From Calocera cornea HHB12733 (Eukaryota > Basidiomycota > Dacrymycetes > Dacrymycetales > Dacrymycetaceae), in NCBI GenBank assembly GCA_001632435.1, contig KV423979.1, forward strand, positions 101,111-164,831: a stretch of DNA of 63,721 nucleotides, in the 5' to 3' direction. The notes under the pieces are model-generated. The model was not told the origin of the DNA. It saw nothing but the letters and a program-made list of their open reading frames with translations, and did not search any database. Numbering within the stretch: the stretch's first letter is position 1; each line of letters opens with the position of its first letter. Positions 29,042 through 63,406 of the stretch are shown here, one piece after another. Made by a program: the position numbers and the translations under genes.

Positions 29042-29427
29042 ACGAGATGCGTGCTCTGTGCCCTGTGCCCTGACGCGCGTCGGGGGCAAATGTGTGCCCT
29101 CGCTGCCTAATATAGTAACAAGGGCACAAGGCTATGGGCTTGCGCCCATAGCCTTGCATGGTCTCGCACTCTTCATTTTATTTTAGATAATATTATCACC
29201 CTAACCCTAACACATCCCCAACCCTAACCTGAACACTAACCCTACCCTAACAGCTAACCTACTCGCTCCGCTCGCCCGCCCTAACCAATACCCTAACAGC
29301 ACGCATCCTAACCCAATGGCACCCTGGCAGAGCACGGCCGCGTTGACCCAATTTCCGCTTTAGGCAATACGGAGGCAGATTGCCTCCGACGCGCGTCAGG
29401 GCACAGGGCACAGAGCACGCATCTCGT
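29042..29427. mobile_element. Foldback/MITE-like element with telomere-like core
   Basis: Terminal inverted repeats of 48 bp (29042-29089 and 29380-29427) match with one mismatch and start ACGAGATGCGTGCTC. Between them is a perfect 12-bp hairpin (AAGGCTATGGGC, loop TTGC, GCCCATAGCCTT) at about 29130-29157. A block at 29198-29310 holds many CCCTAA hexamers. No open frame and no clear target-site duplication were found. It is probably a non-autonomous element. The CCCTAA content could come from capture of telomeric sequence or from chance in the element's ancestor. Confidence 0.7.
29198..29310. repeat. Interstitial telomere-like CCCTAA repeats
   Basis: CCCTAA occurs at least six times, interspersed with near-matches such as CCTAACC and AGCTAACC. 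TTAGGG is the usual basidiomycete telomere repeat. The block lies inside the foldback element, far from either end of the window, so it is interstitial. Confidence 0.65.
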
Positions 29428-30668: not shown

Positions 30669-31856
30669 ATGAAGCGCCGTTCGCAAACGCAAGCGGCCAA
30701 GGGCTCCCTCATACCCCAGAGCACACCCTCCCGCTCACAGTCCCTGGCAAGCCTGCCGAGCCCACCGCCAAAGCCGACATCGATCACCACATCCAGGCCT
30801 GGGTCGAGGAGGAGCAAGCTTCTGGACTCGACCAACTTGTTGCGAACGTCTCTACCCGAGGAGCTGCTTCAGGGGGATGATGAGGTGGACTGGCGGGCGA
30901 GGGTCGGAGTGCTCGAGGCTGAGAACGTGAGGCTGCGTGCTGCCGAGGCGGAGAACGCCCGGCTGCGTGGCCTCGAAGCGGAGAATTCCCGGTTGCGTGG
31001 CCTCGAAGCGGAGAACGCCCGGCTGCGCGGCTTAGAAACCGAGAACACGAAGTTGCGCTCCCAGCTAGCCTCCGTCTCCTCCCGCCCGACCCAGCGCGCC
31101 TTCGACGATCTCAAAAAGGACTACGACGTGATCGAGTCGATCCTGGACGGAACGCAGAAGGAGAACGCGCACGCCGAGGAGCAGATCAAGTTTCTGCGGG
31201 AGCGGCAGCGCAAGCTCGAGGACGCCCTCGCGCGCTTTGTCGGGCCGAGCTGGGCCGAGCTCGCTGATGTGCCCCCGCTCAGCACGGGCCCTGCCAGCAG
31301 GAGGCAGAGCAAGCTCTACGGCGACGAGCATATCACCGTGCTACCCACGCTGGAGGAGACGAGCTTTGCGAGCTCGCGCGGGCCGCAGCAGGAGGACGAG
31401 GACATGGAACAGGAGCAGGAGCAGGAGCAGAAGTCGCTCAGCGTCACTCCGACCGTGCAGAGGCTCGCGACGAGCGCGACGAGCGGGCTGAGCAGGGGGA
31501 GCATCTCGGACACTCTTCTGGATCTGTATGACAACTCGTCTGTCGACCTGGAGGCTGAGGAGGGCGAGGCGGTGCGCTCCCGCCAGCCGAGCAGGGCATC
31601 CAACGCCAATGACCCCCTCACCGCGAGCATGCTGAGCCTCAAAGACCCACTCACGGCAAGCATGCTGGACGTCTCGACCTCCCACCGGCCGAGCAGGGTA
31701 GAGGAAGACCCCGCCTTCCAGCGGATGGAGTTCCGTGTGCGCGCGCTCGAGACGATCGTCAAGAGCTTCATGAGCCGGGCGGTGCCCGAGCACGCGGGCG
31801 AGCTGTCGATGGTCCGGGACGAGCTTGAGGTCGAGGGGTTCTTGAAGGAGCTGTAA
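30669..31856 (+). CDS. Coiled-coil protein with ten-residue LEAENARLRG repeats
   Basis: Single-exon hypothetical protein of about 395 residues from the ATG at 30669 (MKRRSQTQAAKGSLIPQSTP). The frame is open 38 codons further upstream, but the Ser/Pro/Arg-rich leader starting MKRR looks like the true start. After LRTSLPEELLQGDDEVDWRA comes a coiled coil built from near-identical ten-residue units (AEAENARLRG, LEAENSRLRG, LEAENARLRG, LETENTKLRS). A conserved-looking segment follows (FDDLKKDYDVIESILDGTQK, FLRERQRKLEDALARFVGPS), then an acidic Gln/Glu run and a Ser-rich region with two DPLTASML copies, then a final helix. The function is unknown; the layout suggests a cytoskeletal or spindle-associated scaffold, which is only inference. 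Confidence 0.65.
   Translation: MKRRSQTQAAKGSLIPQSTPSRSQSLASLPSPPPKPTSITTSRPGSRRSKLLDSTNLLRTSLPEELLQGDDEVDWRARVGVLEAENVRLRAAEAENARLRGLEAENSRLRGLEAENARLRGLETENTKLRSQLASVSSRPTQRAFDDLKKDYDVIESILDGTQKENAHAEEQIKFLRERQRKLEDALARFVGPSWAELADVPPLSTGPASRRQSKLYGDEHITVLPTLEETSFASSRGPQQEDEDMEQEQEQEQKSLSVTPTVQRLATSATSGLSRGSISDTLLDLYDNSSVDLEAEEGEAVRSRQPSRASNANDPLTASMLSLKDPLTASMLDVSTSHRPSRVEEDPAFQRMEFRVRALETIVKSFMSRAVPEHAGELSMVRDELEVEGFLKEL
30927..31050 (+). repeat. Tandem 30-bp coding repeats
   Basis: Four units of 30 bp encode the ten-residue coiled-coil repeats. Units 2 and 3 differ at only a few bases from unit 1 (pattern GAGGCGGAGAACGCCCGGCT), which points to recent expansion. Confidence 0.7.
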
Positions 31857-36335: not shown

Positions 36336-37469
36336 AGCCCAATTGTGGCTCGGGCGTCAGAGTCGAGGGGTAAGCCCTGCTTAGTACAGTCCTACTCACA
36401 ACACCATTCTCAACAAGCACAAGGGATTGCACCGAGCGTGCTCGGTCTTGTTCAGCCGGGATGCGACTACATGACGTGAGACTGCTGATGTATGCGGGTA
36501 CGAAGAGCGTGGAGAGCTGAACGCGGCAACCCTACCGGGCGTTATTATTGTCGCAAACGTGCGATGTATCGGCGGAGTTGCTGTCTGCTGGCGATCTTCC
36601 CCGCCGTATCGTCCGATTATTCTTTTGATAATGATCAAGTGACCAACGCGCCGAAACCACCCGTCTCAACACAATCGGTTACTGAGTAACGACTAACCGC
36701 TATCTCAGGCCACCTGACCCATCGTCGCCTTATCTGTTCGAGCACTTTCCAGCGGGACCTTGGCGACCATTGTATGTCATCCCCATACGGTCATACGGTC
36801 TATCCAGTCATATAAGGGTTATTGTCAGATCCCTGAGGTACATTCCGGATGCTCGGCCGGGGCCGTCTCTCCCAATGCTGCTGTCACGGCCCCACCCATT
36901 ACCGCACTTCACAAAATCGCGCATCCGTGATACCCTATCCTCGCCAGTGTCCCGCCGGGTATCCAGTGACCCATGCGCAGTAGCATTCAGTCACCCCGCA
37001 TACAGCGCTCGGCTAGATTAGATACGCTTACACTCGGTGTTTCTTAGCCTCTTTTAGCCTGCGCCTCATCGGCGATCCCACCTTTCTTCCCCACTCTTCT
37101 GAGGCATTTTCGTGCTTGTCCCGCTCCTCGCGGGCCCACCGGCCGGCACCACCCTCACCCTGCCTTACTTCGTAACGTCTGATGGCATAGGCGCCGGTGC
37201 CTCACGGCCTCCGCACGGTCGCCCCTCCTTCCTGCGCCCTCTGAGTCCCTCTGAGGGATTTGTGCTGTTGTCTCCTGACCTCATGCATCGCTCCAAGCAA
37301 GCGGCGAGGCGCGATAGAAGCTTCTTCCCGCTGATGCACCGCCGAATATCTCGCAAGACTTGCCTTTATTGGGAAGGGGAATAGCGGAGGAACCGCCGGA
37401 AGCCGCGGGTCCATACGAAAAGCAAGGTGCGCTCTGGAGCTGTCCTGAGCGCAGCCGACGCCTCTGGAA
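36336..37469. other. Gene-free region and upstream promoter of metallothionein 1
   Basis: No gene was recognised. TCTGAGGCATTTTCGT at 37098-37113 recurs upstream of the second metallothionein. The nearer promoter elements are listed separately. Confidence 0.5.
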
Positions 37470-37479
37470 GGTATATAAA
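37396..37479 (+). promoter_or_regulatory. Core promoter of metallothionein 1
   Basis: CCGGAAGCCGCGG at 37396-37408, a TGCGCTC heptamer matching the TGCRCNC metal-response consensus at 37428-37434, and a TATATAAA box at 37472-37479. The CCGG(A/G)AGCCGCGG element lies about 64 bp before the TATA box, the same as in the paralogue. The leader between TATA and ATG is rich in CAACCAAAC. Confidence 0.6.
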
Positions 37480-37569
37480 GGAGACGGTTGCCTCGTCTCT
37501 TTCCTCACCAAACACTTTCATCTCACCGCCCAACCAAACAAACAACCCAAACAACCCAAACCAATCCAA

Positions 37570-37785
37570 ATGGCCGTACGTGCTTCCCCATAAGACTGCG
37601 TAAACTGGATAGCTGACGCGGATTTCCTTTGGCAGGCTACCACCGTTGTCTTTGTCGATGCCCACTGCGGCGAGTCCCAGTGCAACTGCGGCGACTCTTG
37701 CGCCTGCGCCGTACGTTTATCCGCCGACTGGCCCTCTGAGACATATGCTGAACGTTATCTGTAGCCCGGCGAGTGCAAGTGCTAA
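37570..37785 (+). CDS. Metallothionein, copy 1 (33 codons, three exons)
   Basis: Small Cys-rich metal-binding protein that would buffer copper, zinc or cadmium in the cytosol. Exons are 37570-37575 (ATG GCC only), 37636-37710 and 37765-37785, with introns of 60 and 54 bp starting GTACGT and ending AG. The 33-residue product starts MAATTVVFVDAH and then has seven Cys in the order C-x4-C-x-C-x3-C-x-C-x4-C-x-C, ending GECKC. The three Cys-x-Cys pairs are the metallothionein hallmark. The Phe and His before the first Cys are unusual for metallothioneins. No single reading frame covers the gene, so an ORF scan misses it. The product of copy 2 differs at one residue. Confidence 0.85.
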
Positions 37786-38885
37786 ATGCACCACTATCGC
37801 CTGCCCTCCATAGGAGACGGATGCCGGTCAAGTTTGGCAGCTGGCGGAACGTAGAACTCGTGCACTGACGAGCACGTATCTGGGCATATGAATGTATACC
37901 ATGTTTGATCAATAAATGGGGTTGATGTGATCTTGGCGCATACACGCCTCATATGAGTGTTCCGTTATATTGTCTCGAGTGCACTTCCGGAATCGATGAG
38001 CGCTTGTTTGTACGAGATCGGCTGGCGAAATGTTCGCGATTCGCGCGCCTCCCACGCTTGTTCTCCCCGTTGGACAGGTTGGCTCGTGAAAATGCAGTTG
38101 CAGAAGCGCTGTCGTAGTAGCAATCCTAAGGCGGGTTATATGTAGTACGTCTGTGCCCAAGCTTCAGTTAATATAGACGACTGTCTGACTGGAAGGTTTC
38201 ATTAAACCCACACGCCCACTTTGCACGCGGGTGCCACACTGCATCAATGTCAACTGAAGTCAAGTCTCATCCATCGGACCTGTTCGCTTGAATGTAGATC
38301 CATGTTTCTGTTAGGAGACAGCGAGAGGGTATCAGTGCCCGGACGCGTAGAATCCTATTACCTTTGGATTTGTCTCGCACCGGTCCTCCCGAAAGAGAGA
38401 CGAGGGCTGGAGAACACGTCTGTGCCCCACTTCCACATCAAGCGCGAGCATTTGTTTTGGTCGTTTCTATGTTTGTAAGACACATTGCCAGACAAGGAAC
38501 AAGAACCGCCTGTATTATCCCCATGTCACTCATACACAGATAGCGCCTCCTCCTCGGTCTTGCACTGGACTAGATACAGCCTGTTACCTCTTTTGTCTCG
38601 TACCCCTTTCGGAATCCAATCGTCGTCTACTCATTAGATCTGAGGCAAAACAATTCTTATTGTCCGGCTCCTTGCGGGCAACTACCGGCTCCACACTGTA
38701 TCTTGGATCTTCCGTGCATCGCGAGCGCAGCTGGATTCTGAGGCATTTTCGTACCTTGTCCAGTTAATCGGCTATAATACGTTATGCATGTGGAGAGGGG
38801 CGATAGACGGTGTTCGAACCCTGACTCTTCGCCCAATATCGCGCACCACTTTCCTTTCGCGGCAGACGGAATTCCGGATGCCGCA
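37786..38885. other. Spacer between the metallothionein genes
   Basis: No gene was recognised. The first part is the 3' untranslated region of copy 1, with an AATAAA signal near 37912. TCTGAGGCATTTTCGT at 38737-38752 is the shared upstream block of copy 2. Confidence 0.5.
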
Positions 38886-38969
38886 CCGGGAGCCGCGGCT
38901 CTCGCCTCACCTCACGAGTCGCTTTGTTACAAGTCCATGCCTAACTACACGCTCTCCACAGGTATATAA
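38886..38969 (+). promoter_or_regulatory. Core promoter of metallothionein 2
   Basis: CCGGGAGCCGCGG at 38886-38898 and TATATAA at 38963-38969, 64-65 bp apart as in copy 1. A CCAACC/AAACC-rich leader leads to the ATG at 39058. Confidence 0.6.
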
Positions 38970-39057
38970 GGACGACTTTTGGCACGTCCATCGCCCCACC
39001 AAACTCTTCAAACTCACCGTCTAACCAACCGACCTAAACCAACCCAAACCAATTCCA

Positions 39058-39271
39058 ATGGCTGTGAGTCTTTCTGCGACGGAAAGATCAAAGCCAAACG
39101 GCTGACGCGTAATTGAACTAGGCCACCACCGTTGTCTTCGTTGACGCCCACTGCGGCGAGTCTCAGTGCAACTGCGGCGACTCTTGCGGCTGCGCCGTGA
39201 GTTTTCTCAGTCGACACTTCGTTGTCTTCTCACTAATGTTGTTATTATAGCCCGGCGAGTGCAAGTGCTAA
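39058..39271 (+). CDS. Metallothionein, copy 2 (33 codons, three exons)
   Basis: Tandem paralogue of the gene at 37570 with identical architecture: ATG GCT at 39058-39063, exon 2 at 39122-39196 and exon 3 at 39251-39271. The protein is the same except that the residue after the fourth Cys is Gly instead of Ala (SCGCA against SCACA). Third-position differences and diverged introns show the duplication is not brand new. The coding match is much higher than the intron match, which indicates purifying selection on the protein. Confidence 0.85.
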
Positions 39272-39455
39272 ATGCACTCTCTACCTCCATTCCATTCCGA
39301 TGAGATAGATGGACGTCAATATCTGGCACGTGAGGGAGAACCGCACTATGGGAACTTCAGAACGTGTAACTGGGCCTATCTCTGATCTAGCGTGTAATTG
39401 TTGAATGAAACGGGGTTGCTGGTGTTTTCGAAGCGTTCTTGCCGACGGGCTGTTT

Positions 39456-39968
39456 GTCAGGCAGCACGGGTCGATCAAGCATGAGTGCGCACTTGGCCGA
39501 GAACGGCCGAGATAGTTCCGACTGAGTTTGCGGCGGAAGCAATTGGATGGGCAGAGACATGTCAAGTGCGATGGAGCAGCGTACCAAACATATGACGGCG
39601 ACTTGGCGAAGTTGGTTCAGCGAACGGAAGCGTTGGTCTATGACCAGCTGCCTAGTACTTCCTGCCCTACTGGAGTCGCTGTTTCGAGTCTCGGGGTGGG
39701 AATCATATGGATTTCTCATTCTGGGTTCCCTGGATGACTAGTGAAGGGGGACCCTAAACAAAGAACTGGGCGGCGGGCCGGGGAGAGGCGAGACACCTCC
39801 TTTTGTTGCCATTGCCCTTGTCAACAGGTATGTTACCCTGCGTACTTTATAATGAGCTGTTCTAAGCTGTTCTATATAATAATTTCTCGTCAGAGATGCG
39901 GTTGCAGCCAAAAACGGAAGCAATTATGTGCGCTGGCTGCGCAAACTCCCGAGGCGGGCGAACCCTCC
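39456..39968 (+). repeat. Left arm of inverted-repeat element, copy 1
   Basis: The outer 114 bp (39456-39569) are found only in this copy, on both arms. From GATGGAGCAGCG at 39570 inward the sequence is shared with copy 2. Confidence 0.85.
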
Positions 39969-40625
39969 ATCCTCATCGGTTTTCTCACCGAGTGGTACAC
40001 TATATTATACGAAGACCAGTGGAAGATGGACAGCAAGGTTGGACAAGTAATCAAGCCGCGGTCTCGTCTTCTGCTTTGAGTTCGTTCCACGGCCGACATC
40101 TGTCACAACCACGCCTCACAAGCTGATACAGTATAACTTATGTCAGATTGCAAAGCACACAAGCAGATGTCTTTCAACCGCCCACTGGATTGACACTCCA
40201 TCTTGCCGCAATGAGCTGAAATGACAATGAAACCTTGTGCCTAAACCGGTTTCGTGGTTTGGCCTCTTTGACAACCTGGGTTCAAAACTTTCGTCGTTCG
40301 ACCGTCGACATCAGACAGAGACTATCCGCGCCGCCCCCTCGGGAACAGCTGAATGCAGTACTGGTACGCGCACCATGCTAGAGGGCTCTGAACAGCTTCT
40401 GAATCGCACAAGTGCGTGCCGATCGCGACTCGGTGAGTGCTGTGCATACATTGGCCCTGCCGGACCTGTGACGGGATTCGACTGTCTTCCAGTTGACCAG
40501 TCCCAACACAGATCCAACGGCGCGTGCAGACAGGCAGTTACAGTAGCGGGAGGATTGAGTGAACGAATTGTGCGGCATCTAGCCCGATGATTGGTGGGGC
40601 TTTCCGTAGCATGCAAGAAGCATAC

Positions 40626-41138
40626 GGAGGGTTCGCCCGCCTCGGGAGTTTGCGCAGCCAGCGCACATAATTGCTTCCGTTTTTGGCTGCAACCGCATCT
40701 CTGACGAGAAATTATTATATAGAACAGCTTAGAACAGCTCATTATAAAGTACGCAGGGTAACATACCTGTTGACAAGGGCAATGGCAACAAAAGGAGGTG
40801 TCTCGCCTCTCCCCGGCCCGCCGCCCAGTTCTTTGTTTAGGGTCCCCCTTCACTAGTCATCCAGGGAACCCAGAATGAGAAATCCATATGATTCCCACCC
40901 CGAGACTCGAAACAGCGACTCCAGTAGGGCAGGAAGTACTAGGCAGCTGGTCATAGACCAACGCTTCCGTTCGCTGAACCAACTTCGCCAAGTCGCCGTC
41001 ATATGTTTGGTACGCTGCTCCATCGCACTTGACATGTCTCTGCCCATCCAATTGCTTCCGCCGCAAACTCAGTCGGAACTATCTCGGCCGTTCTCGGCCA
41101 AGTGCGCACTCATGCTTGATCGACCCGTGCTGGCTGAC
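40626..41138 (-). repeat. Right arm of inverted-repeat element, copy 1
   Basis: Reverse complement of 39456-39968. It ends CCCGTGCTGGCTGAC. Confidence 0.85.
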
Positions 41139-41284
41139 AGCTCGTACATAGTTAGTTACACAGACACAGGGAATAATCTCTCGAGTCCGCCCAAGCGGCA
41201 TTCCTTTGCAACAGTCTTGACAGGCAGAAGGGGCGGAATATGACCAATTAGATTCTAACTCCTACACTACGCTATGCGGAACCA

Positions 41285-44200
41285 TCAGATGTTGTAGAAC
41301 GAGAAGCTGGGCGAACCAGGCTCCGCCGTATCTATCACATTGGCGGGATATCCCGGCTGGCCAGCCTTCGCCCGCGCTTCGTCAGCAAGTACTACCTCAG
41401 CCTTCTCCGACGACAGGGTACGCTGGAGATAGGAGATATTCGTTGTCAGCACGTCGATCTCCGAGAACGGCAGCGTCCGGTTGAACGCCGTCTTGGGCCC
41501 AAACTGCCCTATCCGTTTCTGAGCAAAGGATCAGTAGGTGACTACACGAGCAATGGGAGTGAGTCTACCTTGAAGGCTTGAACGAATGGCATCGCGCGCT
41601 TGTCCTTCATCAGACCCGCGGCGCCGAGCAGCTGTCGCACCTTGACATCATCGACAGTACCCGTGGACACGTCGAACGCATCCTTTACGACCGTCACGCA
41701 CGTCTCTTGCCACTGTGGGAAAGAGCTTGCGACGAAGATCCGCAGAGCCTTCGGCTTGGACGGGTCGACCACGGGGCCAGAACCCTTGCCTTTCCGCTTG
41801 CCGAGGGACATCTCGAAGTCACGAATGGTCTTGACGGTGTCCTTGAAGTATTCAGAAGACTGGATGATGATATGGTCAACGGGCTTGGAGGGCGCAGGCC
41901 AGAGGGCGAGCTGGACAGACTTGGGCTCCTTGAGCACCGTCGACCAGACGTGCTCGGCATAGTGCGGGGCGACGGGCTGAACGAGGAGGGCGGAGATGCG
42001 AATGAAGTACTCGATCAGGTCGGCGTGCATGCCCGCGTCGGCGGTCATCTCACGGTACGAGTCGCGAGCAGACTGGAGCTCGTAGAACCCGTACTTGAGC
42101 GCATCCTTGTAATTTGTCCTGCAACATCCATTAGAACACTGCTATGATAACAAGGGAAGGCGGTGCTTACTGTTCATACATCTTCTTTGTCACCTCGATC
42201 AGGCTGTTGATCTCATGCTCGAACACGTCGTCATGGAAAGTCTTCGGGCCGGAGCGGAGCGACGACTTTGTCTCGATCATCTCCTCGCACCACGACATGA
42301 GGGTGTGCAGGCGGAGGATAGCCGCGTTCGCCGTGGCCTCCTCAAAGTTGGCGTCCTCAATACCATCGCCCGAGTCGGCGAGGGCGACGCGGGTCGCGTC
42401 CGCACCGAACTTCTCGATGCTGTCGCGCATAGTGAGGCTGTTGCCCGTGCTCTTGCTCATCTTCTTCCCGTTGAGCATGAGATGGCCGTTGCAGCGCATG
42501 CTGAGGGGCCACTTCTCCTCGGGGAAGATGGCGGCGTGGTTGTAGATGCAGAAGGTGAGGTGGTTGTTGATCAGGTCCTTGCCGGAGGAGCGGATGTCCA
42601 TCGGGTACCAGTAGTTGAACTCGCGCTTCAGCGCCGCCATCTGCTCCTTGGTGATCGGGCACGGGTCGGGGTAGGGGCCGTCGCGCATGATGTGCTCCCA
42701 GACCTCGTCCGTCATCTGCTCCGCCTTGACGCCGAGCGGGCCAACTTCGTGCCCGTTGATGACGCCGCCTGCAGCTCATCAGCACAACACCCTCCAAATA
42801 GGGAGGAAGCACGCACCCTGCAGGAGGTACGCAACCGAGTAGTAGGCCATATAGATCGTCGAGTCACTGAGTGACTCCACGAGCCACTTCTTGTCCCAGG
42901 GCAGCTTCGACCCGAGCCCGTACGTGCGCGCGCACGCCCACTTGTTGAGCCAGCCCATGGTGCCCTCGAACGCGTGCCGCGTCTCGTCAAAGTACGTGTT
43001 CATGTTCGCGAGCAGCCTGCTCCCAGTCAGTACACGATCAGACCGGGGGCAAGGGGGGACAGAACGCACTTCTCCGCCTGTGCCTTCCACACCGGCTCGC
43101 CGTAGTCGATGTACCACTGATCAACTAGGGCGACTACGCACTCGTCCGCGCTCCTGCTGATGATGAGCCCCTCCGGCTCAGCATAGGCAAATGCCAGCCC
43201 GGCATCGATCATCCTCTCCCGAACTTTCTGTTTCGCCTCCTGCACAGGCTCGCCCTCAAACTCGCCCACGAGCATCGTGCCGCTGTAGAACCCTTCCTTG
43301 TACGCGAGCTCCTTAGCCTCCGCAAGCTGCTTGATGTCCTTCTGGCTCTGGATCTTGAGCTGCTTGCACAGCGCTGGCGCGGTCAGGTCGCCGTAGGTGG
43401 GTGTGCGGATTACGGGGATAGGGTCGAGCGCCGCCCAGGAGGGGTCGATGTGGTAGAACTCGGCCTTCTTGCGCAGGTCCATCAGCGTCGCGTAGTCGTC
43501 GGGCGAGTCGGAGGGCACGGAGGTGACGACGCCCGTGCCCTTGGTGGCGAGGACGTTCTCCATGGGGAGGACGAACACCTCCGGGTTGAGCCCGAAGGGC
43601 GCTTTGATGCGCGTGCCGATAAGCGCCGCGCCGTCCAGCTCTGCCAGCTGCGTGATCTCCGCCCGCGGGAGCGTGCAGCCTTGGAAGGCCATGTTGCGTG
43701 CGGCGCGGTAGGTGCACACGTACGCCTCGCTGTCGTTCGCCACGAACAGGCCGTACTTGATCGCCGTGCCCACAAAGCAGTTCGTTTGGCCGTACCTGCG
43801 CCACGTCAGCTCTTCCAATCTTGAACCATCCAAAGCGCGCTCACATTGTCTCCGGCCGCAGCGTCGCCGCAACGAGGAAGATCTTCCTCCCTCCCGCCTT
43901 CTCCTGGAGCACCTTTGCGCTCTCCGGCAGGTGCACAACCTCCATCTTGAGCGCGGTATACTCCTGCGGGCCGAGCGCCTCCCCACTCGCGCGATCATGG
44001 TCCATGCACGGCTGTCCGTCCTTGGGGCTGTAGATCGTGTACCGCTCGCCGAAGAGCACCTTTTGCTGTGCGTGAAGGGCGTTCATCTGCCAGCGGACGA
44101 AGCTGTCAAAGTACGGGTTCACGTCCGTCGTGATGAACGACCGGCGGTAGTCGATCCGCGCGCCGAAGGACTTGGCATCTTTCTGCACACACACAGATAC

Positions 44201-44912
44201 CACGCATAGGGTCAGTACCCATTCCTTCAAGCAGGCACGAGGAGAGACGCACGATAGCGATAGGCGGGAAGTACCCGAGCCAGTAATAGGGGTCCGCAAA
44301 CCGCTTGATCTCCTCCCTCGGCACGCCAATGCTCTCCATGATCTGGAACTGGTACGTGAGTCCAGTAGCCTTCGCAGCGACCTTTCCCTTCTTGGCCTTG
44401 TCAACCGCTCCAGGCGGGTTGGCCCCCGTCGGCGCGACAGCCGCCTCCTCCTCCTCGGTATCAGGCTTGAACCCAGCAAAGTCCTCTCCGAACAGCTCCA
44501 TCTCCCTGATAAGCTTGTCTGCCGCAGCCTTGATCGGCATGCCCGTGCAGTGGAACCCCATGGGGAAGAGCACCCTCTTCCCGAGCATGCGCTGGAACCC
44601 GGCGTTGAACTCGATCTTGGAGATGGTGAACGCGTGGCCGAGGTGGTACGACCCGTTCATGTACGCGAACGGAAAGGTGCCCATCCATTTTGGCTCGACC
44701 GTTTCTTGCCCGGGGGCGGGCAGCGTCGCTTCGAAGAGCCGCTCGGACTCCCAGAGCGCCTGGTACTTCTTCTCGAGGGCGACGAGGTAGTCGCGCTTGC
44801 CCGTCTGCGCAGGAAGTACGAGGTTAGCGGTGGCTCTGGCGCCCCTGGAGAGAGGGGGGGAGGAGGAGAGGCGGACCTTGGCAAGCTCTATAGGCCCGTT
44901 CGCGCTCGCCAT
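41285..44912 (-). CDS. Cytosolic leucyl-tRNA synthetase
   Basis: Charges tRNA-Leu with leucine and, in fungi, can also signal leucine to TORC1. About 1,080 residues in eight or so exons. It starts [13 protein letters not shown], then [20 protein letters not shown]. The HIGH-type motif is in [36 protein letters not shown] follows, then the large editing domain ([46 protein letters not shown]). [20 protein letters not shown] is next, and the KMSKS loop is in [20 protein letters not shown]. The anticodon-binding and C-terminal regions include [17 protein letters not shown] and end SPSFSFYNI. This is the archaeal/eukaryotic cytosolic type, not the mitochondrial one. It is divergently transcribed from the uL29m gene. 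Confidence 0.95.
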
Positions 44913-45018
44913 CTTCGGTCTAGCAGCAGGTATATGCGCGTGTCTAGCTCTTGTTGCAGGTTGTATTCCTCGGAAAGCAGCAGTTGCAAAGCGTGTACAG
45001 CGAAGTGTCCCCCGCAGG

Positions 45019-45043
45019 TATGTCGTCGTCGTCGTCGTCGAGT
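45019..45043 (+). repeat. GTC/TCG trinucleotide microsatellite
   Basis: About seven TCG units in a row, in the shared promoter between leucyl-tRNA synthetase and uL29m. Confidence 0.75.
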
Positions 45044-45302
45044 CTGGCCTGGCAAGAGGCCGAGGGTGCGAACGGTGCTGCTTTTGGGTGCTCTGTGTCT
45101 GCGTTGCACGCGCTGTTGCGGTGAGGGCCTGACTCGGGGCCGCACTTTTTGGTTCGCAAAGAAGCGCATTATTTGCTCCCGTGGACCGTGAGATTATGTA
45201 AGCGTGCATTCTTGCAGGGCAAAGTCCCTGAAGGTCTCGTGCAAAGCTCCATCCGTCCTCTGTCAGTCTTTGTGGGAGCGAGCGCGGTACACGACTTGGA
45301 AG

Positions 45303-46329
45303 ATGGCCTTCCTACGGCGGCTGCCCACCCTTCTGCCCTACCTTCCCAGCACATCATCCCTCCTCCTCGCCCGACCCCTCCCCCCGACTCTCTCCCGCAG
45401 CCTTCCCCGCCTCCCCCTCCTCTCCCGAACCTACGCCGCCGTCCCCCACCCCTCGACCTACGCCTCCCCCGCACCTCCGCCCAAGCGCCCCCCTCCCAAC
45501 GCGGACGGCACCCTCCGCCCGCACCTCGGCGTCGAGACCCGGCCGGACCACGGCCTGTACGGCTTTTTCCATAGGGATAGCGAGGGCAAGGCGGTTACGC
45601 TCGAGATGCAGGATGTGAGGACGGACTTCTCGGGTGCGTCGCTTTCCCCCTGAACTTGCGCGCTTGCAGGGTGCTGCTGCTTCTGGTGCTGCTTGAGATG
45701 CGTCAATCAGCGCGCAGCAGCACCCGGCAGCAGCCCCACGTATCGTGTCCGACCGCCCAGTACTCACACCTCACTGAACAGGCCGAAGCTGGAACGCCCC
45801 CGAGCTGCGGCGCAAGTCCTTCCTGGACCTGCACACGCTCTGGTACGTCCTCATCCGCGAGCGGAACGTGCTCCACACGCAGCTCGAGGAGTGGAAGAAG
45901 GTCGGCGGCATGCCAGAGCATTTCTCCAACATCGAGAAGCTCAATAAGAGGGTGCGTCTTTCTCCCCGCTTTGGAGCGACAGCGACCTCCTGCTGCTGCG
46001 GCCACCTGCTTGCTGCTTGCTGCTGGGCTGAGGATCACCTCGCTTCCCGGTCGTGACGCGTTGAAGCGCATATATGCTGACCCACCCGCTTCCTTCCGTA
46101 GTGCCGCAAATCCCTCGCGCGGATAAAATACGTCCTGAACGAGCGCAGGCTCGCATTCAAGCACGCCCGCCTGATAGAGATGAGGGTCGCAAAGAACAAC
46201 GTGCGTAACCAGGCGCGCTTGGCGAGGAAGGCGAAGAGGTTGGAGGAGGAGGCTGCTACTGCTGCCGCGGGGGGTGCCGGGCGGGCTGGGGCTGGAGCGG
46301 GGGTGCAACAGCCGCAGGCTGCGGTGTAA
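45303..46329 (+). CDS. Mitochondrial large-subunit ribosomal protein uL29m (MRPL47/MRPL4 family)
   Basis: Component of the mitochondrial 54S subunit near the exit tunnel. The start [20 protein letters not shown] and following Arg/Ser/Leu-rich residues to about 43 form a presequence. The family core reads [20 protein letters not shown], then [20 protein letters not shown] and [39 protein letters not shown] follows in the last exon, and then a Lys/Arg/Ala-rich tail. Three exons. Typical fungal members are 200-300 residues; this one is about 240. Confidence 0.9.
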
Positions 46330-46416
46330 CCCTAGAGCAGGGTCACGGTACACATTAATACGATCCCATTATCTCTCTGCGTCGCTTCCTTCACTCGGTC
46401 GGGGTGTCTGCATGGT

Positions 46417-47614
46417 CTATATGCTCCCCTTCCTCCACGCCCTCCAGACCCTCCAGCTAGTCCTCCAATCGTCCGCCCTGGCCCCCCCTACCCGCGGGTC
46501 TCCCCCGGCCGCCTTGAGCCTCTCCACATAAACCAGAGCTGGCACCTGCACCGTCAATCAGCACCTTCCCGCACCCCGGAGACACAGAGAAAGATGCACG
46601 TACAGCGCTAAGGAAGACAGGCAATTTCTCCCTCCCGACCTTCCCTCCCGCTCCCGCCTCCAGCACCTCCCTAGCCCGCCCCACCTCCTCCCCCACAGCC
46701 TCCGCAACCTCCCCGACCCGTTCCCGCCAGCTCTCTTCCCCGCCCTGCCACCCCCGGCCGAGTGGCCCCTCCCCCCCTCCCGCAGCTCTCAACGCGCCCG
46801 CCAAGCCTACAGCCTGCCCAACGTGCGACGCCGCGTGCCCCAGCCTATCCTCCGCTTTCGCCCCCTCGGGTGTGCCAGCGCTCGGCAGCGGCGGTAGGAT
46901 CCCTAGACAGAGGTAGAGAAGAGAGGAGCGCGTAGACTGGGCAAAGGAGCGCAGTTCTTGCACCGTTGGAACGGGGGGAAGGGGCTGCGAGTAGGCCGTT
47001 ATGAGCCGGTTGAGGTGATACGGCTGGAGGGCATGAAGTTGGTGGGCGCGCGAGAGGGCGAGGCAGACAGGATGTTGTGGAGGGGTTCCCTAAGGTGCAT
47101 GTTAGACTGGGCGTTTAGGGAGTTGCAGACAGGTAAGGACGCACAGCGATGATGGACTTGACGGCGTCACGCCACCAGGTGTAGCGCATCTCGCCTAGAA
47201 TCTCTTTTGACACTTTGCGCCTCACTTGGGCGATCTCGGCCTGCGCAGACGACGGTCAGCGTTGCATCCAGTGTAATACCATGGCACCAGCACCACCCCG
47301 CGTGCTCGATAGGTCGCGGGCGACAAGGACATCGCCTTGGGGGCGGGAGGGAACAGACGACGCACATGGAACGCATGCAGCGCATAGAACGCCGGCCTCG
47401 CGACGCCCGGGTAGAAGTAGCTCGTCAGGAACGCAGGGTAGTCTGTCTGCTTCGTGAGCGACAGGCAGTACTCGTCGGCCTGCTTCAGGCTCGCGGCTGC
47501 CTCTGACGGCGGGGACGGAGCAGCGCGCCGCGAGGGTGTTGAAGATATCCGCCGTCGGGCGGGGAGGTGCCGGGCTGCATGCAGTGCGCAGCTCGGGCCT
47601 GCTTGTGGGCGCAT
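46417..47614 (-). CDS. NDUFAF6-like squalene/phytoene synthase-fold protein
   Basis: Members of this branch assist assembly of mitochondrial complex I and use the isoprenoid-synthase fold without the Asp-rich metal sites of true phytoene synthases. The start MRPQAGPSCALHAARHLPAR, with RRR and Ser residues, suits mitochondrial import. The core reads ADEYCLSLTKQTDYPAFLTS, then YFYPGVARPAFYALHAFHVR, and EILGEMRYTWWRDAVKSII after an intron. SFAQSTRSSLLYLCLGIL and LGHAASHVGQAVGLAGALRA follow, and a Gly/Glu-rich stretch leads to LPVFLSAVPALVYVERLKAA. The end reads WRTSWRVWRAWRKGSI, recovered by splicing the last intron. Its start lies 100 bp from copy 2 of the inverted-repeat element. Confidence 0.8.
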
Positions 47615-47713
47615 GAATGCGGGAGAGGCCCAGGTGCGCTCAGATGCTGGGCACAGAATCGTGCAGTCTAGTGGCGGTGCCACCCATCGGCCCTTACGCG
47701 AGGGACGCTTATG

Positions 47714-48137
47714 TCCGGTGGATGTACCCATATGGGATGGAGCAGCGCATCAAACATATGACGGCGACTTGGCGAAGTTGGTTCAGCGAACGGAAGCGTT
47801 GGTCTATGACCGGCTGCCTAGTACTTCCTGCCCTACTGGAGTCGCTGTTTCGAGTCTCGGGGTGGGAATAATATGGATTTTTCATTCTGGGTCCCCTGGA
47901 TGACTAGTGAAGGGGGACCCTAAACAAAGAACTGGGCGGCGGGCCGGGGAGAGGCGAGACACCTCCTTTTGTCGCCATTGCCCTTGTCAAGACTATGTAT
48001 GCTACCCTGCGTACTCTCTCTAAGTTCTTGAACACACACATCATAACAATATCTTGTCACAGAGGCGGTTGCAGCCAAAAACGGAAGCAATTATGTGCGC
48101 TGGCTGCGCAAACTCCCGAGACGGGCGAACCCTCCAT
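47714..48137 (+). repeat. Left arm of inverted-repeat element, copy 2
   Basis: Shares GATGGAGCAGCG inward (from 47736) with copy 1. In the segment at about 47990-48065 it differs markedly from copy 1 but agrees with its own right arm. Confidence 0.82.
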
Positions 48138-48793
48138 CCTCATCCGTTTTCTCACCGAGTAGTACACTATATTATACGAAGATCAGCGGAAGATGGACAG
48201 CAAGGTTGGACAAGTAGTCAAGCCGCGGTCTCGTCTTCTGCTTTGAGTTCGTTCCACGGCCGACATCTGTCACAACCACGCCTCACAAGCTGATACAGTA
48301 TAACTTATGTCAGATTGCAAAGCACACAAGCAGATGTCTTTCAACCGCCCACTGGATTGACACTCCATCTTGCCGCAATGAGCTGAAATGACAATGAAGC
48401 CTTGTGCCTAAACCGGTTTCGTGGTTTGGCCTCTTTTGACAACCTGGGTTCAAAACTTTCGTCGTTCGACCGTCCACATCAGACAGAGACTATCCGCGCC
48501 GCCCCCTCGGGAACAGCTGAATGCAGTACTGGTACGCGCAGCATGCTAGAGGGCTCTGAACAGCTTCTGAATCGCACAAGTGCGTGCCGATCGCGACTCG
48601 GTGAGTGCTGTGCATATATTGCCCTGGCGGACCTGTGACGGGATTCGACTGTCTTCCAGTTGACCAGTTCCAACACAGATCCAACGGCGCGTGCAGACAG
48701 GCAGTTACAGTAGCGAGGTGATTGACTGAACGAATTGTGCGGCATCTAGCCCGATGATTGGTGGGGCTTTCCGTAGCATGCAAGAAGCATGAT

Positions 48794-49217
48794 ATGGAGG
48801 GTTCGCCCGTCTCGGGAGTTTGTGCAGCTAGCGCACACAATTGCTTCCGTTTTTGGCTGCAACCGCCTCTGTGACAAGATGTTGTTATGATGTGTGTGTT
48901 CAAGAACTTAGAGAGAGTACGCAGGGTAGCATACATACCATTGACAAGCCCAATGGCGACAAAAGGAGGTGTCTCGCCTCTCCCCGGCCCGCCGCCCAGT
49001 TCTTTGTTTAGGGTCCCCCTTCACTAGTCATCCAGGGGACCCAGAATGAGAAATCCATATTATTCCCACCCCGAGACTCGAAACAGCGACTCCAGTAGGG
49101 CAGGAAGTACTAGGCAGCCGGTCATAGACCAACGCTTCCGTTCGCTGAACCAACTTCGCCAAGTCGCCGTCATATGTTTGATGCGCTGCTCCATCCCATA
49201 TGGGTACATCCACCGGA
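48794..49217 (-). repeat. Right arm of inverted-repeat element, copy 2
   Basis: Reverse complement of 47714-48137 apart from a few substitutions, for example near 48945 and 49045. Confidence 0.82.
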
Positions 49218-49325
49218 AAAACTATCGGACATGCGGCATCGGCCCCAGGGTCCCACCAGCGCTCGTATCGGGCGACCACACCATTGTACATCACAGAGCC
49301 TCCCGCCAATATCCCTCCTTGCAGG

Positions 49326-50688
49326 ATGTCCCTGCCCATCATCCCTCTATCCGCAATACTCCCATCCTCTCCAAACCCGCTACGACTCGCCACAGTTCCG
49401 CGGCTACACGCTGCCTGTGTCGAGTACGGTTTTTTCTACCTCGACCTTACCGGCTTCGCGACGCCCGAGGAGACGGAGGAGCTGCGCGCGCTCGCACAGG
49501 AGTTCTTCGACCTCCCCAAGGAGGAGAAGGAGAAGATCTGGCTCGGGAATGGGGACTGGGCGCGAGGTGCGTTTCCCTTTATTCTCCCCTTTTCGCGGTA
49601 CTGATCAGCCGAGCAGGCTACCAGAAACTCAACGAGAACGTGACGCGTGGCAAGCCCGACGCGCACGAAGCACTCGACTTCTACGCCCCATCACCCTTCC
49701 CGCCATCACCGCCTGGCACTCCAGGGGTGGAGGGAGGTGTACGCCCCCTGAGCGGGGACAATCAGTGGCCGCCTGATCCCAGGTACAAGGAGCGGTTCGA
49801 GCGATGGGTCGGTAAGATGAAGCAGCTCGGGCTGATCGTAATGGAAGCGTACGTCACTCCCATCCCCCTACCAGCATCCAGTCCGTCGCTGACATTGTAC
49901 TATCTCAGGATGGCCCTCGGACTCCAGCTCAACTGGTCGGAGTGGGCCGACCTCCGGCGGCAGGTCGAGAACTCCTTCTGGGTGATGCGTGTCATCGGCT
50001 ACCCTCCTCTGCCAGCGGGCCACGACGGCTTCTCCTGCGGGGCACACAAGGACTATGGGTGCCTCACCTTCCTTTGGGCGGACAAGACGGAGGGCGCGCT
50101 GCAGGTGTTCGTACCTGAAGCTGCGTCGGCGAGCTCCGCACCTGTCGCAGTTGGAACTGCCTCCACTGATGTGCAAGCGGGGAACATGGACCTCGGCCCG
50201 TCTGTGGAGAACGGTGTGAGGGGCACGTGGATCTCTGCTGACCCAGTCGAGGGGTGCGTGGTGTGCAATATCGGCGAGATGTGGGAGGTGTGGACGCGCG
50301 GGCTGTACAAGAGCACGCTCCATCGGGTGCTGCATCGGACTGACAACTACCGGCGCGTGCTCCTTCTTTATCCTTGCTGTTGGGCAGGAGCTGACTCGAG
50401 TGCAGGATATCGTACGTGGCCATCAGGTATACTAGGGGCTATATTACTAATGTACTGTGCAGAATCCCATTCTTCTATGAACCCGCGTTCGATGCGCTCG
50501 TTGCTCCCCTCCCGGGCGTCGACCGACTGCTCACGTCCATCCGCGGGAACCCAGACACGTCGAGCGAGGCATACGCGCGCGCGCTTCTGGCTGAGAAGAC
50601 CGTGTACGAGCCGGTGGTGTATGGCGAGTTCCTGATGCGCAAGGTTGGGGGGAACTTCGATAAGACTGGCGGAGAGGGGAGGTATTGA
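49326..50688 (+). CDS. 2-oxoglutarate/Fe(II)-dependent oxygenase (isopenicillin N synthase-like)
   Basis: Non-haem iron oxygenase of the DIOX_N/2OG-FeII family; the substrate is unknown. The start MSLPIIPLSAILPSSPNPLR leads into the N-terminal domain (CVEYGFFYLDLTGF, then LRALAQEFFDLPKEEKEKIW and GYQKLNENVTRGKPDAHEAL). The catalytic domain has FWVMRVIGYPPLPAG, then CGAHKDYGCLTFLWAD with the HxD pair, and NIGEMWEVWTRGLYKSTLHR with the distal His. The substrate-binding Arg-x-Ser follows across the next intron (DNYR joined to an S-I-P-F-F segment). Five or so exons. The frame is open upstream of 49326, back into the inverted-repeat element, but that part is unlikely to be coding. It converges on the transporter gene. 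Confidence 0.87.
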
Positions 50689-53392: not shown

Positions 53393-54641
53393 ATGGAGGC
53401 TTTGTTCTTCAACGTATGTCGCATGGGTACCATTATCAGGACGAGTTGCTGACAGCAGAGCGCAGGTCGACAGCGGCTTCCTCGAGGCCATCGTGCGCGG
53501 ATACCGAGCCGGCCTGCTCACAACGGGGCAGTACCATAACCTGACGCAGTGCGACACGCTCGAGGACTTCCGCATGCAGCTCTCCCAGACCGACTACGGC
53601 AACTTCCTCGCTAACGAGCCCACGCCCATCACCACCAGCACGATCCACGCCAAGGCGACGCAGGTGCTTGTAGACCAGTTCAACTACTTGAGGAGCAATG
53701 CTGTCGAGCCGCTGAGCACCTTCTTGGAGTACATGACGTGAGTCGACCCGACGTTTGGTCGCGAGCTTGAGCTGTGGGCTGATGATGATGTGACGAAGAT
53801 ATGCGTACATGATCGACAATGTCATCCTCCTGATTACCGGCACATTACACGAGCGAGACACTCACGAGCTGCTCGAGCGCTGTCATCCTCTGGGAGTGTT
53901 CGATACCATGCCGGCGCTTTGTGTAGCAACGAACGTGGAGGAGCTGTACCACAGCGTGCTGGTGGAGACGCCATTAGGTGCGTCTGCCTATCAGGTCTAG
54001 GCATCAGGCAGCTGCTGATGTTCGTCCCAGCTCCGTACTTCCGCGACTGCCTCTCCGCCTCCGATCTCGACGATCTCAACATCGAGCTGATTCGCAATAC
54101 GCTGTACAAGGCGTACCTGGAAGACTTCCACAAGTTCTGCAGCACGCTGCCCGACCCGACGCCGGAGGTGATGCACCAGATCCTCGCGTTCGAGGCCGAC
54201 CGACGAACGCTCAACATCACCATCAACTCGTTCCACTCCTCTCTGACCAAGGACCAGCGCGCGCGGCTCTTCCCGAGCATCGGCCGGCTCTTCCCCGAGG
54301 GGAATAACGCGCTTGCGCGGGCGGACGACCTCGAGGGCGTCAAGAACGCGTGCGAGTACATCGCGCAGTACCGCGCGTTTTTCGACACGGCCGCGAGCCA
54401 GAGCAACGGCAACGCGCCCGGTATGGAGGATACCGACGCTGCGCTGACACGACTCGAAAACGCCTTCTTCGCTCACGAGGTCCACCTCAACAAGCTCTCC
54501 TTCCTCCAGCAGTTCCAGTACGGTGTCTTCTACTCGTTTGTCAAGCTCAAGGAGCAGGAGATCAGGAGCTTGACCTGGATTGCAGAGTGCATCGCGCAGG
54601 AGGCCAAGGACCGCGTGGGCGATTTCGTGTCGATCTGGTGA
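53393..54641 (+). CDS. VMA6: V-type ATPase subunit d (VMA6/ATP6V0D)
   Basis: Cytosolic subunit that couples the central stalk of the V1 motor to the c-ring of V0. The first exon encodes MEALFFN, then [19 protein letters not shown] and [40 protein letters not shown] follows, then [20 protein letters not shown] and [20 protein letters not shown]. The last exon has [37 protein letters not shown] and [20 protein letters not shown], and ends [20 protein letters not shown] then GDFVSIW. About 355 residues in four or five exons, matching the family length. All landmarks are highly conserved. Confidence 0.95.
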
Positions 54642-61595: not shown

Positions 61596-63406
61596 ATGTC
61601 TGATCAGTTGACGGGGGGCACGGACCCGCAGCCAACCCTGATCAACGGGGTTACTGATCTCCTGGCACTCCAATCGCCCGAGGTGAGCCTGAGGACACCG
61701 CCTATCCAAGAGTCGATGCTGATTCTTCGTCCAGATTGTCTCAGCACTTCGCACCCTCGCTTGATCCAGCTTGGACACCGTGGCCCTCTGGAAGGACCAT
61801 CTCCAAGCACCTCTGGAGCGTTTTGCCAGGTGCGCATGCCTGTCACCCCGCTGCGGCCCATTCTGACTTCGTTCCAGTCACGCGTATCCTTTGACCGATG
61901 TTCCCTACGCCCTTATTGCAGCCATATCGGACAACACAAATCAAGATCCCGGTCAGCTCGGTGCTTCGCAAGCCACCGCCGCGTCTGTTCCCCCGGGTCC
62001 CGAAGGTGATGCAGCCACTGTCGAACGCCGTCAGGCAGGGCGATCTGCCACTCAGCCTCCGTGCGCAGGAGCTGCGGGGCTTCCAGGTCTGCTTGAGCCT
62101 TCAGCGTCATCTGGATCGTCCATTCCACCGGGGACCTCTGGGACAGAAGTGCCCGAGAGGCCATCAAATCCTCGACGCGTATGGCGGATGTCAGACTCAG
62201 CTCCTCCGCCGCCCAACGAGACTCTGTCTTATGCAAGCCCAAGCCCAACCAAGATGCCATCCGCCGATTGCGTTCCCAAGCTCAGTATATTTTCCCTCAA
62301 CGAATCCGTGTCTGTTTTGATCTCAAGCTTCTATACGGGTTTGGGTACGTCATGATCTGTTTCACGCCCGCTGCCAAGCCCAACCAAGATGCCATCCGCC
62401 GATTGCGTTCCCAAGCTCAGTATATTTTCCCTCAACGAATCCGTGTCTGTTTTGATCTCAAGCTTCTATACGGGTTTGGGTACGTCATGATCTGTTTCAC
62501 GCCCGCTGGTATTGTACTCACCTGCCGGTAGCGGCGCTGATAGCAGTTGTGTTCACTTGCGAAACATGGGAAGACCTTTTTTGGCGGCTCTTGGTGACCT
62601 GCCGGCTTTTTGTGTGGATCTCCTGGGACGACCATGCGGCAGACATCCCGACCATGTTACACTGCGTGACGTTCAGCACCCACACTGCGGAAGACATCCA
62701 GTGGGACGCACCTGTCCTGAACCCGAGCGGCCAGGAGGTGTTGCTGCCAAATCGGGGTTATCACTCCCATACCGCTGGATCATCTCCTACCTCTAGCCGC
62801 CGAACGCGATCGACGCAATCCACCGTCACGCAGGCGCTCCTCCATCCGTTATGGCACTTCTTGAAGCGGGTCATCCCCCGACCCCTCAATCCACAAGGGC
62901 ACATCATGATTGTGGAAGGAGTGGGGCCATCCCTTCCTCCCCCAGACGTGAGTGACAGGCCAGAGCTTGGCCGCTTGAAGCGCTGGGTCAGAGACGCGCG
63001 CACTCGCCTTTTCGGTCAGCGTCACGGCGACTTGCCCGAGTGGCTTGTGGAAATTCGAAACTGGATGGCGTGGAAGGTCTCCCTGGATGCTGCGTGGTGG
63101 CCGGACGTGACTACACCTTTCCCGAACGTGTGGGGAACTGCCCTCGCTAGTCAGACAAACTACCTGGCGAACAATTGCGCGGAGTTTGTGCTCTGGCTTG
63201 TGTTGGTCTCTTCCCTCCTTCTCATACTACTGGAATCACTGACCCTCGTCCTCCAGGTTATCCGGGCTTTTCTCTGTGCCTCCCGAATTTCTCAACCAAC
63301 CCGGAACATTCCACCTCGTGACTTGCAATATCAAGGACGCTTCACGCGTTTGTCAACACACGGGCGCCGAAAAGCGTCCCACCGGCGATCCATCCTTGGC
63401 AACTAA
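61596..63406 (+). CDS. Unrecognised multi-exon protein with hydrophobic segments, probably transposon-associated
   Basis: The start MSDQLTGGTDPQPTLINGVT is followed by frames joined by presumed short introns. These are SRSARCFASHRRV, then QAQYIFPQRIRVCFDLKLLY and GFGYVMICFTPA, and WEDLFWRLLVTCRLFVWISW. LLNPQG-type text leads to HIMIVEGVGPSLPPPDVSDR, WVRDARTRLFGQRHGDLPEW and EFVLWLVLVSSLLLILLESL, a clear membrane segment. A 45-residue block is present twice in tandem (62239-62508). Exon joins are not resolved. It is divergently transcribed from the minus-strand gene at 60005. No family was recognised. Confidence 0.4.
62239..62508 (+). repeat. Perfect 135-bp tandem duplication inside a coding exon
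   Basis: 62239-62373 and 62374-62508 are identical over 135 bp (45 codons), so the frame is preserved. Each unit encodes PNQDAIRRLRSQAQYIFPQR then IRVCFDLKLLYGFGYVMICF. Identity at every base indicates a very recent event or an assembly artefact. Confidence 0.9.

Follow-up and report, generated by a model that had tools for sequence, protein, structure and literature searches.

In fungi, the mating-type inversion of Hansenula polymorpha reportedly uses inverted repeats, and in fission yeast inverted-repeat boundaries are bound by TFIIIC. In comparison with the latter, what is known of the palindromes considered here is the sequence motifs. Switching in H. polymorpha (PMC4238957) resembles our case in that a chromosomal stretch is inverted in a fungus, whereas the loops described below carry no Pfam-recognisable gene. 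In the human Y palindrome P6, as described in PMC3723533, the arms share variants through conversion and inversions occur, rarely in P6; the arms here are 0.4-0.5 kb long and fungal, and exchange seemingly takes place also between palindromes, swapping loops and cores. The conserved intergenic inverted repeats of Caenorhabditis likewise keep their structure, gene conversion being named as a candidate mechanism by the authors (PMC1803023). Those repeats are flanked by paralogous gene pairs, whereas no such pairing was seen among the frames tested beside our P1 and P2, and only the distant pair Q6/Q7 is part of an inverted duplication of ABC-transporter frames. In yeast, template switching from one inverted-repeat arm to the other also yields arm homogenisation and spacer inversion; as described in PMC8604942 it concerns short non-identical repeats and multinucleotide mutations, whereas here blocks of ~60-400 bp and loops are concerned, also between copies. 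Two element types are close as well. The Tetris foldback element of Drosophila virilis combines long inverted repeats with the absence of a conserved ORF, is present in few complete copies, shows signs of within-copy homogenisation and has 8-10 bp target duplications (PMC4079207), and AfuSINE2 of Aspergillus fumigatus is a low-copy fungal element with a tRNA-like head, Pol III promoter features and target duplications (PMC5063351). In contrast to both, no convincing target duplications accompany the elements described here, whose cores stand in inverted pairs. In a limited literature search, mostly on mechanisms and element types, a description of the present family was not found.

The window analysed is a stretch of 63,721 nucleotides from the Dacrymycete Calocera cornea HHB12733, the final 63.7 kb of contig 66 in a draft genome of 32.1 Mb and 302 contigs with runs of N. 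An earlier note on this DNA had described two palindromes, here P1 and P2, and both were found where it had placed them (Table 1). The equal arm lengths that it had pointed out are real, but they are uninformative for any ungapped inverted repeat. The variants that it quoted as common to both arms of a copy were present in P1 and P2, and the stretch of ~75 bp by which the copies differ was a genuine two-state block, with types A and B. In a four-arm alignment of P1 and P2, both arms agreed at 43 ungapped columns separating the copies, some of which fall in the unlike outer segment that this alignment forces together, and 7 columns were private to one P2 arm. Inverted repeats with arms of at least 100 bp and a loop below 2 kb were surveyed over 153.7 kb, comprising the window, C16:1-50000 and C16:145001-185000 (C16, contig 16). 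Since P1, P2, P3 and P4 were the only ones detected, P1 and P2 are not chance structures.

Table 1. Positions of the palindromes, their parts and associated features (window coordinates unless prefixed by C16).
Feature	Position	Strand	Remarks
P1, whole palindrome	39455-41139		arms 514/514, one mismatch; loop 657 bp
P1 left arm (P1L)	39455-39968	+	outer type alpha 39455-39566, core, inner type A, tail
P1 loop, 657 bp	39969-40625	.	97.6% to P2 loop, ~60% to P3/P4 loops
P1 right arm (P1R)	40626-41139	-	identity to P1L 513/514
tRNA-like core of P1L	39597-39804	+	box A 39604-39615, box B 39681-39691, first T4 run 39801-39804
tRNA-like core of P1R	40790-40997	-	opposes P1L core across loop
Flank segment X, right of P1	41214-41387	-	70% homologous to C16:38774-38943, left of P4
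P2, whole palindrome	47714-49217		arms 424/424 at 97.6%; loop 656 bp
P2 left arm (P2L)	47714-48137	+	outer type beta, core, inner type B, tail
P2 loop, 656 bp	48138-48793	.
P2 right arm (P2R)	48794-49217	-	P3 homology runs on outward to 49280
tRNA-like core of P2L	47763-47970	+	box A 47770, box B 47847
tRNA-like core of P2R	48961-49168	-	box A 49161, box B 49084
Outer beta DNA common to P3L and P3R	49218-49280	-	past the limit given in the earlier note
P3	C16:18972-20416
S5, one truncated arm	C16:28978-29569
P4	C16:38943-40297
Q6 / Q7, distant inverted pair	C16:163452-163594 / C16:170803-170975
Large inverted duplication with ABC-transporter frames (L028, L029, L032)	C16:156512-163588 and C16:170840-177978		82-86%
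Tandem pair of short cysteine-rich genes	37469-37791 and 38960-39277	+	72% DNA identity over pair
V-ATPase subunit frame	53742-54638		100% match to Calocera cornea HHB12733 protein over 68% of query

Whole-genome DNA searches, the counts of which are lower bounds, gave as further members P3, P4, the lone arm S5 and the distant inverted pair Q6/Q7, all on contig 16. A 22-base word of the core occurred exactly 11 times genome-wide, always in family copies, with no other occurrence at up to 3 mismatches and 0 occurrences of the reversed control. The nine close arms found in the 32.1 Mb were confined to two contigs, on which the palindromes have different gene neighbourhoods. An inverted duplication of 7 kb, in which ABC-transporter frames are present, has Q6 and Q7 as its innermost portion; its 7.25-kb centre holds GDA1/CD39 and bZIP frames.

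The earlier note had claimed that the symmetry of each palindrome extends into DNA specific to that copy, 114 bp in P1 and 22 bp in P2, and had proposed hairpin replication or arm-to-arm conversion. The two outer segments are indeed unrelated to each other, but neither is private to its copy, an outcome that the note itself had named as speaking against its reading. The outer 22 bp of P2 recur in P3L and P3R within 147-bp matches at 99%, and P2R, P3L and P3R have ~60 bp of further outward DNA in common (outer identity 85% for P2R-P3L and 87% for P2R-P3R). The outer segment of P1 aligned locally with P4R, S5 and P4L better than 500 of 500 shuffles in each case, in results from the best 22 of 45 pairs compared and with shuffles that keep base composition only. 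These relatives are diverged: identity to P4 and S5 was 59-62% over the inner 40 columns, the 514-bp P1 arm matched P4R from base 37 on in a DNA search, and a 136-bp query of the outer segment alone matched only P1's own two arms. Two outer types were thus distinguished, alpha in P1, P4 and S5 and beta in P2 and P3, both present on both contigs and 25-44% identical over 40 columns (P1, P4 and S5 against P2R and P3). The assignment of P2L to beta rests on its inner 22 bp, its outer segment being 38% identical to that of P2R and fitting the multiple alignment poorly.

Considering that these flanking segments are members of the palindrome family, neither copying into copy-specific flanks nor a need for hairpin replication is supported. 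A hairpin or one-ended copying of the arm that runs outward into flanking DNA is rather unlikely as the general explanation, given that outer segments homologous to those of other copies are not simply local flank picked up, and that alpha and beta each occur on both contigs. Some of the ends do fit it. The symmetric alpha of P1 stops abruptly at 112 bp, beyond which the flanks of P1L and P1R have no detectable likeness (80 of 500 shuffles were as good), and the alpha of P4L ends at ~60 bp, abutting X-like DNA. Outward from P1R, the 112 bp of alpha are separated from X by up to 75 bp of DNA that is different or weakly similar. Because of these abrupt stops and the junction of P4L with X-like DNA, some outward copying past the core may have taken place.

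Segment X lies to the right of P1 and to the left of P4 (70% over 179 columns), though the loops of P1 and P4 are collinear, which suggests a flip of P1 against P4 with respect to this flank. P3 and P4 are inverted with respect to each other, at 97%. From these opposite orientations it follows that one or more flips have occurred, or else some rearrangement with the same effect, for instance an inverted duplication. A flip of the loop would account for them; alternatively, P3 and P4 could be an inverted duplication and X could be a segment that moved.

The pairing of arms was evaluated column by column. Between P1 and P2, all 33 informative columns paired the arms by copy (71 gapped and 20 uninformative columns were set aside), and the remaining four pairings of copies did so at 92 of 93. 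The comparison of P3 with P4 (70 gapped and 28 uninformative columns set aside) gave 19/19 outer columns by copy, 14/14 inner and tail columns by side of the loop (0/14 by copy) and one core column with a third pattern, neither copy nor side. The expectation that arms cluster by copy and not by side therefore held for P1 and P2, and failed in the inner and tail parts of P3 and P4. At the level of blocks, the core of P4L equals that of P2 and the core of P4R that of P3, the inner part of P3R equals that of P4L, and the tail of P3L equals that of P4R (each 100%, rounded), while within a copy the tails are 78% identical in P3 and likewise in P4 (rounded). The right inner part of P4 is of the other inner type than its left. 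The arms are thus mosaics with tract boundaries present: P3L switches in its inner stretch from type A to P4R-like sequence, and P4L joins a P2-like core to a P3R-like inner part. With the copy-wise pairing of P1 and P2 and the arm-type mosaic of P3L, the proposal that arms are copied from each other is well supported.

The 513/514 agreement of the P1 arms could also be an assembly collapse, in which similar arms were merged and one consensus was entered in both, as may be thought of in a draft of many contigs and runs of N. We consider this very unlikely as an explanation of the family, taking into account that the arms differ within P2 (97.6%), P3 (94%) and P4 (88%), that P3L is a mosaic, and that a collapse inside P1 cannot yield patterns that cross contigs.

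The loops follow another distribution than the outer types. Loop identity was 97.6% between P1 and P2, 98.7% between P3 and P4, and 59.7-61.0% between these pairs, so the likeness of loops holds inside a contig and that of outer types across contigs. The simplest reading is that the frames are old and that the loops were homogenised by conversion between neighbours, for which the cores would supply the homology.

We consider it probable that gene conversion, acting both from arm to arm and from copy to copy, together with flipping of cassettes, explains this small, local, non-coding palindrome family. Each palindrome would consist of a frame with the same outer type, alpha or beta, at either end, two inverted cores of ~220 bp and a loop cassette, and ordinary homologous recombination would work through the cores. 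Conversion from arm to arm would produce the like arms within a copy seen in P1, P2 and part of P3. Conversion from one copy to its neighbour would swap the loop and the inner parts while the frame stays, by which P1 and P2 would have come to one loop across alpha and beta frames, and likewise P3 and P4. Conversion restricted to the core would connect the contigs (P4L core with P2, P4R core with P3), and the inverted cores would permit the cassette flips that separate P3 from P4, and P1 from P4 relative to X. Because family members would overwrite, swap and flip each other's parts, matching arms are explained without a new mode of DNA copying. The sample comprises four palindromes plus the single arm S5 and does not fix the order of events, which we infer together with the recombination pathway. 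The uniformity of the core could also be due to selection, without conversion there.

A non-autonomous TIR or foldback DNA transposon, with alpha and beta as terminus subfamilies and with TIRs homogenised as in other foldback elements, would share with the family the long inverted repeats, a loop without Pfam match (in the P1 frames tested), the subfamily-like outer types and the differing gene neighbourhoods on the two contigs. We regard it as unlikely. Fixed shared termini are lacking, alpha extending for ~60, 112 or 180 bp and beta past 60 bp; X is shared although it lies beyond the arms; and the close arms found are few and restricted to two contigs. No transposase was found among 30 neighbouring and 5 loop or arm frames run against Pfam, and exact repeats of at least 6 bp lying no more than 25 bp from the ends used gave nothing at P1, only an internal palindrome at P2, a 7-mer and a 6-mer at P3 and a 6-mer at P4, none of which brackets the element convincingly.

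The core, of ~200-220 bp, is 97-100% identical across the nine close arms and resembles a tRNA gene. The box A consensus used was TRGCNNAGYNGG. All 11 cores contain an exact box A, and 10 of the 11 combine it with a box B at up to 2 mismatches, Q6 failing at box B. Sites with both an exact box A and such a box B numbered 10 in the sequence scanned and all lay within the palindrome family; the chance level, from a 3-Mb single-strand simulation that gave 2, is ~0.2 for both strands of that sequence. When one box A mismatch was allowed, 6 further sites appeared outside the family, which is the chance level (4-8 in six simulations). A T4 run begins 204 bases from the start of the core in 9/9 close arms, P2L having an earlier one too; Q7 has two (155 and 195), and none was present in the stretch of Q6 scanned. 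The P1 core aligned from its first base with the tRNA-Trp gene of the same genome, with a score of 46 against at most 40 in 4388 control windows. Taking the best score over 40 tRNAs (the set among the matches listed, with 63 of 562 first-look candidates scored), 600 sampled control windows reached 43, P1 46, Q6 44 (both with tRNA-Trp) and Q7 42 (with tRNA-Ile and tRNA-Glu; tRNA-Trp gave only 34). Against a longer tRNA-Trp locus, shuffles were as good in 1/300 for P1L, 18/300 for Q6 and 184/300 for Q7, and the flanks of the core had no detectable similarity to that locus. Read by eye, the core would not allow pairing of a tRNA D stem. Descent of the core from a tRNA gene is probable, the evidence for this being suggestive and not conclusive, and the core may still be bound by TFIIIC or serve as a Pol III template.

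An intact tRNA was not recognised by ARAGORN at usual stringency, with or without introns; a relaxed run gave 47, 22 and 54 weak candidates. A structured RNA was likewise rejected. The P1 core had a z of -1.06, with 30 of 200 shuffles folding as well (reverse strand, 0.84), Q7 had -1.91 and Q6 0.93, and the covariance models of Rfam 15 gave no match at gathering cut-offs anywhere in the window and none at E<=5 over 39400-41200. A coding arm was rejected too: the 122-aa arm frame had no homologue (7 candidates, none at E<=10) and no Pfam match, and the indels of Q6 and Q7 were not multiples of three in an alignment of 10 of the 11 cores, from which P4R was left out; P4R was included in the arm-type, segment-identity and column analyses.

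The box A and box B sites and the similarity of the P1 core to tRNA-Trp would also suit a tRNA-derived SINE family whose members came to lie in inverted pairs by chance. This is quite unlikely, given that 10 of the 11 cores are in inverted pairs and that the nine close arms have outer DNA in common with other copies and are thus not independent insertions. The weaker result against the longer tRNA-Trp locus, the best tRNA of Q7 not being tRNA-Trp, the unexceptional fold of the P1 core and the lack of convincing target duplications also speak against it. It is doubtful, though conceivable, that the core functions as a Pol III/TFIIIC element of tRNA origin which, in facing inverted pairs, would act as a recombination handle for cassette exchange, with non-coding loops swapped or flipped between alpha and beta frames and the cores uniform across contigs.

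With regard to the surroundings, P1 sits between convergent genes, a metallothionein-like one (+) and one for leucyl-tRNA synthetase (-), and this arrangement misfits a role as shared divergent promoter for the neighbours. Of the tandem cysteine-rich genes, which resemble metallothioneins, the second terminates immediately left of P1. A 529-aa open frame (49046-50635, +) begins within P2R and reads through, without a change of frame, to a 2OG-Fe(II) oxygenase domain; it is possibly a chance read-through of the arm. Elsewhere in the window there are a MITE-like unit at 29042-29427, with 48-bp terminal inverted repeats (98%) flanking contig-internal telomere-like CCCTAA repeats, 4.5 copies of a 30-base repeat at 30912-31046, whose unit length is divisible by three and which may encode a protein repeat, and a 135-bp tandem duplication of 2 copies at 100% (62239-62508). 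Near S5 and P4, C16:30919-32308 and C16:40844-42238 (L026 and L027) form an inverted paralogous pair at 69%, whose translations have a RING-like cysteine motif recognised by eye.

The case is also a cautionary one, as a symmetry that seems to enter copy-specific flanks may vanish after the remaining family is collected. Related mechanisms are already published, and the present family is a well-resolved fungal example in which short inverted repeats have undergone conversion and exchange and probably inversion. In a small space, a basidiomycete genome here preserves natural traces of such events, and the variants are numerous enough for exchange inside arms, from copy to copy and from contig to contig to be told apart. 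If the tRNA-like core were functional, Pol III/TFIIIC sites would be tied to stable inverted pairs and to local recombination.
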